64,000 bases of DNA from Prochlorococcus sp. scB243_498I20 (lineage in GTDB: Bacteria > Cyanobacteriota > Cyanobacteriia > PCC-6307 > Cyanobiaceae): contig JFMR01000045.1 of the NCBI GenBank assembly GCA_000635015.1, positions 124,001-188,000 on the forward strand. Direction: 5' to 3'. This document shows, one piece after another, positions 31,603-34,633 of the stretch; the first letter of the stretch is position 1, and each line of letters begins with the position of its first letter. Both the position numbers and the translations under genes were made by a program. The notes under the pieces were generated by a model that worked only from the letters and a program-made list of their open reading frames with translations, did no database searches and was not told where the DNA came from.

Positions 31603-32952
31603 CTAGTTAGTTAGTTTGGCCAGCTCTTCCCAAAAAGTGGGGTACGAGACGCTAGCTGCATCTGCCCTCATGATTTTTGAGGTACCTTTGGCAAGAAGTG
31701 AAGCAATAGCAAGACTCATTGCTATTCGATGATCTGTCTCACTGTCTACTTCCGCAGAATGAAATTTTGATTGCCCATTAATAATTAATCCATCCTCTTT
31801 TTCTGTTATCTCAGCACCAAATTTTCGTAACTGTCGTGCCATGACTTTTAATCGATCTGTTTCTTTAACTCTTAATTCTTGTGCATCTTTAATTTCAGAA
31901 ACTCCATTACAAAAACAGGCAGCCACAGTTAGGATAGGAATCTCATCTATAAGTTTTGGGAGAATATCTCCTTTAATAGTAAATGATCTTAAATTATTTG
32001 AGCTCTTTACTTTAATAGATCCAATAGGTTCGCCTGCAATAGTCGATTTATCTAAAATTTCATAATCACACCCCATTGAATCCATTACATTTAAAATTCC
32101 TGTCCTTGTGGGATTTAGTCCGACATTCTGAATTAAAACCTCTGAATTTGGAACAATAGATGCAGCAATCATCCAAAAAGAAGCAGAGCTTATATCTCCA
32201 GGAATCAATATTCTCTGGCCAATTAAGTTACTACCTGACTTGATAACTACATTTCTTCCTAATTCTCCCCTTATACTTATGTCTGCTCCAAATGCTTTTA
32301 ACATTCTTTCAGTATGATCTCTTGAAGATGCTGGTTCAATAACAGAAGTAGTTCCAGAAGCTTTGAGGCCTGCCAATAAGATTGCAGATTTCACTTGGGC
32401 ACTTGCTACAGGGGTTCCAATAACACAGCCTTTTAATTTATTCCCATCAATTGAGATTGGAGCTTTGTTACCGTTTTCTCTGCCAAAAATTCTGCCACCC
32501 ATCAACGATAACGGTTTGCCCACTCGCCCCATTGGCCTTTCATTAAGAGAAATGTCTCCTGTTAAGATAAAATTCTTGCCTTCTTGACCGGCAAGTAATC
32601 CCATTAATAATCTCATGGTGGTTCCCGAATTCCCACAATTTAGGATTTCTTTGGGCTCTCTAAATCCATCAAGACCCAATCCTGAAATCGTAAAAGGCTC
32701 ATTTTTTTTTATTTCTGGTATGTTAACACCTAATTTTCTTAGACAATCAGCAGTTGAAAGTGGATCTTCAGAATGTAAGAATCCCTCAATGGTCGTGTCA
32801 CCTTTAGCAATACTTCCAATTATTAGAGCTCTATGAGAAATAGATTTATCTCCAGGTACTTTTACTTTTCCTTTTAAATTAACTCCACCTTTTATTGTGC
32901 GGATATTATTCATTTTCAAATTAATTACTTGATAAGATTTCTGTAAAAACAA
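31603..32952 (-). CDS. aroA: 3-phosphoshikimate 1-carboxyvinyltransferase (EPSP synthase)
   Basis: [55 protein letters not shown]. Confidence 0.98.
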
Positions 32953-33046
32953 ATTAGTTTTATATTATCAATAAGTTTGTTTTTAAAAAAAAAATAATCA
33001 AATTAAGTAACTGTTTTCTATAATAAATTCAGAAAAGGATTCGATT

Positions 33047-33775
33047 ATTAATCTTACTTATTATCACGTCGCAAAAGATGTTCCTATAAATAGTCCAGAC
33101 ATTGCGGTAGTCATTGATGTTTTAAGGGCGACAACCACAATTTCTTGGGCTTTAAAAAATGGAGCTGATTCAATACAAGTTTTTGCAGATTTAGATTTAT
33201 TAAAAGAATCTGCAAATAACTGGCAAGTTGAAAAGAGACTAATGCTTGGAGAGAGAGGCGGAAAGAAGATTGAGGGATTTGATTTAGGAAATTCTCCTTT
33301 ATCAGTTACAAAAAAAGTCGTTGATGGTAAAAGACTGTTCATGAGTACTACTAATGGGACTAAATCATTGCAAAAAGTTCAAAATGCTAAGCATTTATTT
33401 GCTATGGGTCTCCCCAATAGGAAAGCAGTTGCCGAAAAAATCATTTCATTAAAAAGTGAAAATGTTTTAATACTTGGTAGTGGTTGGGAAGGCTCTTATT
33501 CACTTGAGGATTCTTTAGCTGCTGGTGCTTTGGCCACATACCTAAAACAGAACTGTGATTTTGAAATTAATATTCTGAATGACGAATTACAAGCTGCTTT
33601 GGCACTTTGGGATGTCTGGAAAAATGATATTTTGAAATGTTTAAAAACAGCAACCCATGGCAAAAGATTGACAAGTCTTGGAGATTATGAGGATGATTTT
33701 AAATGTTGCTCTGAACTTGACTGCTTAGATATTGTTCCAGCTCAAGTTGAAAGAGGTGTGATTCGTGCATCATGA
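33047..33775 (+). CDS. comB: 2-phosphosulfolactate phosphatase-like protein, proposed ATT start
   Basis: ORF track begins at internal ATG 33242, but the frame upstream encodes INLTYYHVAKDVPINSPDIAVVIDVLRATTTISWALKNGADSIQVFADLDLLKESANNWQVEKRL, the expected ComB N-terminal region; AAGGA at 33035-33039 lies 7 nt before ATT 33047. Confidence 0.85.
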   Translation: MNLTYYHVAKDVPINSPDIAVVIDVLRATTTISWALKNGADSIQVFADLDLLKESANNWQVEKRLMLGERGGKKIEGFDLGNSPLSVTKKVVDGKRLFMSTTNGTKSLQKVQNAKHLFAMGLPNRKAVAEKIISLKSENVLILGSGWEGSYSLEDSLAAGALATYLKQNCDFEINILNDELQAALALWDVWKNDILKCLKTATHGKRLTSLGDYEDDFKCCSELDCLDIVPAQVERGVIRAS

Positions 33776-33805: not shown

Positions 33806-34633
33806 TTGACTGATTTTTTGGTAGCTGCATTACAAATTACAAGTACTTCAAATGTTGAAGCAAATTTTACTGAAGCAGAAGAACAGATTGAATTAGCTGC
33901 TAGAAGAGGTGCTGAGTTAATAGGATTGCCTGAGAATTTTGCTTTTTTAGGAGGAGATGATGAAAAACTTAGATTAGCTTCTGAATTATCAGAGAAGTGT
34001 GCAAATTTTCTAAAAACTATGTCACAAAGATATCAAGTTTTTCTTTTGGGGGGAGGATATCCTGTCCCTGCTGGTGATGATAGTCATACTTACAATAGAT
34101 CAGCATTATTTGGGAAAGATGGACAGATTTTGGCGAAATACGACAAGATTCATTTGTTTGATGTTGATTTGCCAGATGGAAATTTATACAAGGAATCATC
34201 CACTATTTTATCTGGAGCAGAGTATCCGCCTGTTGTAAATGTCCCAGGTTTATGCAAAATAGGATTGTCGATTTGTTACGACGTTAGATTTCCTGAACTC
34301 TATAGATATTTGTCTTCCAATGGTGCAGAGCTAATTATGATTCCCGCAGCTTTTACAGCATTTACTGGAAAAGATCATTGGCAAATCCTATTGCAAGCAA
34401 GAGCAATTGAGAATACAGCATATGTAGTCGCTCCAGCTCAAACTGGGATACATTATGGAAGAAGGCAAAGTCATGGCCATGCAATGGTGATTGACCCTTG
34501 GGGTACAGTTTTATCTGATGCTGGAAAAACTCAAGGAGCTGCAATAGCACCTGCTGATAAAGAAAGAGTAAAGAAAATTAGGGAGCAGATGCCAAGCCTT
34601 AAACATAGAAAAAACAAATTGTTTTCAAACTAA
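33806..34633 (+). CDS. nitrilase superfamily carbon-nitrogen hydrolase
   Basis: Catalytic triad contexts LIGLPENFAF, KYDKIHLFDVDLP, GLSICYDVRFPELYR. Confidence 0.94.
   Translation: MTDFLVAALQITSTSNVEANFTEAEEQIELAARRGAELIGLPENFAFLGGDDEKLRLASELSEKCANFLKTMSQRYQVFLLGGGYPVPAGDDSHTYNRSALFGKDGQILAKYDKIHLFDVDLPDGNLYKESSTILSGAEYPPVVNVPGLCKIGLSICYDVRFPELYRYLSSNGAELIMIPAAFTAFTGKDHWQILLQARAIENTAYVVAPAQTGIHYGRRQSHGHAMVIDPWGTVLSDAGKTQGAAIAPADKERVKKIREQMPSLKHRKNKLFSN

Follow-up and report, generated by a model that had tools for sequence, protein, structure and literature searches.

The comB gene of high-light Prochlorococcus is, with a probability that we put at about 85%, translated from the AUU at 33047 by way of a short leader driven by a TATAAT element, this codon having replaced an upstream start that decayed. 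Inspection of the window, i.e. the whole stretch of 64,000 nucleotides analysed here, shows that the comB frame lies on the plus strand, is open from 33011 after a TAA (33008-33010) and ends with a TGA (33773-33775). Codons are numbered from 33011, which makes ATT 33047 codon 13 and ATG 33242, the earliest ATG, GTG or TTG in the frame, codon 78. The sequence-only reading from which this work set out had stated that no such codon precedes 33242 after the TAA, had located CTG 33011, ATA 33020 and 33023 and ATT 33044 and 33047 in this interval, and had described AAGGA (33035-33039) as ending 7 nt before ATT 33047; each of these statements is correct. The features are collected in Table 1. The two genes flanking comB were named from their sequences, and we take them to be aroA and a nitrilase-family gene.

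Table 1. Features of the comB region (positions in the window) and of two further genes with putative non-canonical starts (positions in the genome or locus named).
Feature	Position	Strand	Remark
comB, putative CDS from ATT to TGA, 242 aa	33047..33775	+	2-phosphosulfolactate phosphatase family
Putative start codon ATT, codon 13 of the open frame	33047..33049	+	ATT/ATC in 152/152 crown sequences; ATG/GTG in the same column in 27/27 sequences of other genera
AAGGA, Shine-Dalgarno-like, 7 nt ahead of ATT 33047	33035..33039	+	Similar motif in 120/152 crown sequences
TATAAT, -10-like element	33019..33024	+	Present in 151/152 crown sequences
TCG, codon 11, probable former start position	33041..33043	+	ATG/GTG/TTG in basal sequences; TTG in 86/152 crown sequences
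First in-frame ATG, codon 78, very unlikely to be the start	33242..33244	+	21 invariant columns upstream; predicted fold
Presumed aroA (EPSP synthase), divergent neighbour of comB	31603..32913	-	Context only
Presumed nitrilase-family gene, TTG start, downstream of comB	33806..34633	+	Context only
STAS-domain gene, window's genome	G000:C45:404461-404823 (L330)		
STAS-domain gene, another high-light genome	L287:724-1086		
TIGR04168 gene, window's genome	G000:C45:231375-232217 (L358)		
TIGR04168 gene, further locus	L280:12206-13048		

Judged by profile matches, the comB product clearly belongs to the 2-phosphosulfolactate phosphatase family. It matches PF04029 with an E-value of 6.8e-78 and NF002053 with 439 bits (cut-off 319), positions 1-243 of the latter profile covering residues 13-254, so that position 1 of this NCBIfam model falls on codon 13, that is on 33047. 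The ComB proteins of PF04029 with solved structures (PDB 1vr0 and 2yyv) share with it the family and the core motif VIDVLRATTT. The conserved N-terminus (NLTYYHVAKDVP...VIDVLRATTT) does lie upstream of 33242, as the sequence-only reading had it, and its warning that ATG-based calling loses conserved residues is borne out by the 21 invariant residues that precede Met 78. Unlike what is expected of a 2-phosphosulfolactate phosphatase acting in coenzyme M synthesis, comB is found here in a genome (94.7% complete) in which no ComA gene (PF02679) was found, and a coenzyme M pathway in this organism is therefore unlikely. The missing ComA limits the pathway name that can be given to comB, not its membership of the protein family.

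Relatives of comB were searched in 266 genomes of the same genus, in 400 genomes of the family and in a named collection. After removal of duplicates, 186 sequences were retained: 152 from the crown of the genus (high-light), 7 basal sequences of the same genus and 27 from 20 other genera. The named close relatives are Prochlorococcus, including the high-light strains MIT 9302 and MIT 9201. Codon 13 is ATT in 148 and ATC in 4 of the crown sequences, and the same column holds ATG (25) or GTG (2) in the other genera, some of which are interrupted by a stop in codon 11 or 12. The alignment between crown and other genera is free of gaps across the first nine residues, MxLxYFHVA. The alignment of starts across relatives that the sequence-only reading had proposed thus finds ATT/ATC kept throughout the crown, and the ATT start appears to be common to essentially the whole high-light lineage.

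The pattern of substitution also points to codon 13. In the 152 crown sequences, the parsimony changes at its three positions number 0/0/4, as against 2/10/8 at codon 12 and 26/18/28 at codon 11, with a mean of 10.8 for third positions. Codons 14-29 evolve as coding DNA (2.8/4.0/11.4 steps) and codons 8-11 as non-coding DNA (22/18/22). By these counts constraint sets in at the codon 12/13 boundary, codon 13 being the first to be fully constrained; the codons upstream drift fast among relatives, with stops and frameshifts among the changes. The protein is under purifying selection throughout. Codon 11 is non-canonical in 66 crown sequences; 63 of these lack any in-frame ATG, GTG or TTG in the stretch that runs from the nearest upstream stop as far as codon 29, and 38 have no canonical codon before codon 48. 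Further downstream, canonical codons appear and vanish with synonymous change, and only ATG 78, within the fold, is widely shared. The conservation of the third position of codon 13 is high, yet it is not unique among the Ile codons of comB, and synonymous conservation of ATT alone was rejected as not distinctive.

An AlphaFold model of the protein, built with 20 sequences (mean pLDDT 90), places residues 1-8 in a disordered segment (pLDDT <50) and the first core strand at residues 12-20 (block mean about 92). The predicted fold becomes ordered at the codon 12/13 boundary. A start at codon 78 would remove from this model the strands 12-20 and 31-35 and the helix 40-49, along with the 21 invariant residues. 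Initiation at ATT 33047, as put forward by the sequence-only reading, is well supported: the column is homologous to ATG or GTG in 20 other genera, constraint sets in at this codon, every alternative start drifts, and the predicted fold agrees.

In all crown sequences but one, a TATAAT is found 20-26 nt ahead of codon 13. A motif of the AAGG/AGGA/GGAGG type is absent in about a fifth of the crown sequences, which counts against the proposed start. RNA polymerase would start just past TATAAT, near 33031, and the leader would measure about 16 nt, with AAGGA standing 7 nt before the AUU. The initiator tRNA would read this AUU as Met, the first residue of a 242-residue product whose first core strand would begin there. 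A scan with the sigma-70 consensus gave no site, for want of a -35 match, mRNA structure at the start is nothing special (z = -0.07), and a search of the draft assembly for a 16S 3'-end pattern gave no hit.

Codon 11, two codons upstream of ATT 33047, deserves separate consideration. In the 7 basal sequences it is ATG (L247), GTG (L246) or TTG (L241-L245), and the last five, in which codon 13 is TTA or TTT and ATT is lost, all keep this TTG. The start of comB in the ancestor of the genus was thus probably located there, and ATT 33047 is, on this comparison, not simply a swapped ATG, since the basal sequences start at 33041. In the crown, TTG is found at codon 11 in 57% of sequences, including most of the nearest relatives of the window; the others have CTG, TTA, TCG (as in the window), CTT, CCG, CAG and further codons. 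The sequence-only reading had named a conserved ATG or GTG further upstream in close relatives as an observation that would speak against it. Half of this holds: numerous relatives do have a canonical codon two positions upstream, yet it is not conserved among them. Codon 11 has passed between canonical and non-canonical status about 36 times on the gene tree, it changes more often than the mean third codon position, and it evolves like non-coding DNA, so that in the crown it is not, by this measure, a maintained start. This TTG could nevertheless be usable for initiation in the 57% that carry it. We would reconstruct a start that was first an ATG in the codon 13 column, as in other genera, then an ATG, GTG or TTG that the ancestor of the genus had two codons farther upstream; within the high-light crown this second start would have decayed and AUU or AUC taken over (the order of these steps is our inference).

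One might still suppose that codon 11 (33041) is the real start, the TCG of the window reflecting either a recent loss or a mistake in the sequence, and the strains without TTG being impaired or mis-sequenced. This is improbable. The basal codons and the frequency of TTG in the crown and among the nearest relatives would agree with it, but not the repeated flips of status and the fast evolution just described, nor the fact that 66 of the 152 crown sequences, among them nearly all of one deep sub-clade, have TTA, CTT, TCG, CAG and the like while the protein is under purifying selection throughout. The TTG would also stand only 1 nt past AAGGA. A start at ATT 33044 (codon 12) has a spacing of 4 nt from AAGGA, which is possible, ATT or ATC in 141 of the 152 crown sequences and a constrained first position (2 steps). 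It is even less probable, for the remaining 11 crown sequences carry ACT, ACC, GTT or GCC there, all with ATT at codon 13, and codon 12 has undergone more changes than codon 13; in addition the other genera begin at codon 13, and in some of them codon 11 or 12 is a stop.

Starts at a greater distance are scarcely credible. ATG 33242, or the GTG of codon 33 where present, is the first canonical codon that an ORF caller meets, and the conservation upstream would then need another cause. Against this stand the 21 invariant residues before Met 78, the solved structures of relatives, which align from residue 31, the change of codons 14-77 in the manner of coding DNA, and the position of ATG 78, the only widely shared canonical codon, inside the fold. 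We give as little credence to a start farther upstream (CTG 33011, ATA 33020 or 33023) or one that depends on a frameshift. Both the window and many relatives have a frame open from 33011, but the upstream codons of many relatives contain in-frame stops and indels, the conserved TATAAT overlaps the codons of the CTG/ATA region, and residues 1-8 are predicted to be disordered.

The infC gene of Escherichia coli, encoding IF3, has an AUU start and is autoregulated by its own product. The start proposed for comB resembles it in being a conserved rare start with an AUU initiator; it differs in that comB is an enzyme gene and in that infC of Prochlorococcus starts with ATG. In 22 intact infC loci of the genus this conserved ATG directly follows an in-frame TGA; the E. 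coli-type infC loop is therefore absent in the genus, and an infC-type AUU autoregulation in Prochlorococcus was rejected. There was no sign of a relaxed IF3 either: the protein aligns over its full length with IF3 of E. coli and Thermus and keeps the RGRE motif. Codon 13 is ATG in none of the 152 crown sequences, and among 36 comparable neutral sites with a majority of T, 13 never show G. Since T-to-G changes are this rare at neutral sites, the missing reversion to ATG does not exceed what chance would give and was rejected as evidence of selection for a weak start. In Streptomyces, sigR has a GTC start and is repressed by IF3, as shown by experiment (PMC5472188). It is, like comB, a case outside infC of a conserved non-canonical start misannotated by callers; unlike comB, its codon is GUC and its regulation was demonstrated experimentally, the comB start being proposed here from sequence comparison. 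The sequence-only reading had suggested that comB could be under IF3-sensitive control or poorly translated; with the repression of sigR by IF3 established, such control is a reasonable hypothesis. Switches from AUG to AUU at starts do occur and are very rare, with 1 of 61,358 ancestral AUG starts (Belinky et al. 2017, PMC5622118). In contrast to those switches, the AUU of comB would be fixed throughout a clade that counts well over 100 genomes at species level, an upstream start having decayed first. A literature search turned up no description of non-canonical starts for Prochlorococcus.

Rare starts of the AUU type are known from few genes and are cut off by automatic callers, and standard annotation can shorten the comB protein in this way. 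Here a whole, very abundant ocean lineage appears to use AUU in a conserved gene. The apparent steps of the switch, from a canonical codon two positions upstream through its decay to the use of AUU or AUC, are preserved in living relatives, which makes the comB ATT start an unusually clear evolutionary record of a known phenomenon. These relatives form a natural series for testing the replacement of a start codon and the cost of AUU.

Other genes of this kind were sought in 1.2 Mb from a high-light genome, set against 0.8 Mb from a second genus on the basis of 617 sense ortholog pairs after removal of antisense shadow ORFs. A handful of genes has a conserved N-terminus upstream of any canonical codon. 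One of them, a STAS-domain gene resembling those of anti-sigma factor antagonists, has ATA, ATC or ATT and never ATG, GTG or TTG at the start column in 30 of 30 loci from 22 genera, with a sequence of the GGAGG/AGGGGG type upstream in most loci and, in high-light strains, a stop two codons upstream of this column. In the TIGR04168 metallophosphoesterase gene the start is CTG in 26 and TTG in 3 of 30 loci. The NCBIfam TIGR04168 model matches the CTG-started protein only from residue 29, past the metal-binding GDxHG motif, and seems to have been built on proteins truncated before this motif; correct starts thus matter for annotation. As both genes have such starts across the family, non-canonical starts there probably form a small real class, of which comB would be the high-light member. 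It is rather unlikely that these conserved non-canonical starts of marine picocyanobacteria (AUU in comB, AUA/AUC/AUU in the STAS gene, CUG in TIGR04168) are held weak by selection, so that their translation would respond jointly to IF3 activity or initiation fidelity.

Three further genes were observed in passing. A high-light scpB-like gene (L415:18058-18621, minus strand, and L435) has no in-frame ATG, GTG or TTG before its conserved N-terminus; in other genera this gene often begins with ATG GCC. A transporter-like gene (L432:5506-6423) has an ATT aligned with the ATG of the other genus in a single pair. Likewise in a single pair, a YfiH-like gene on the minus strand of G012 (about 484220-485029; H_-_714971_715781) has, in this strain, a conserved N-terminus that no canonical start precedes.
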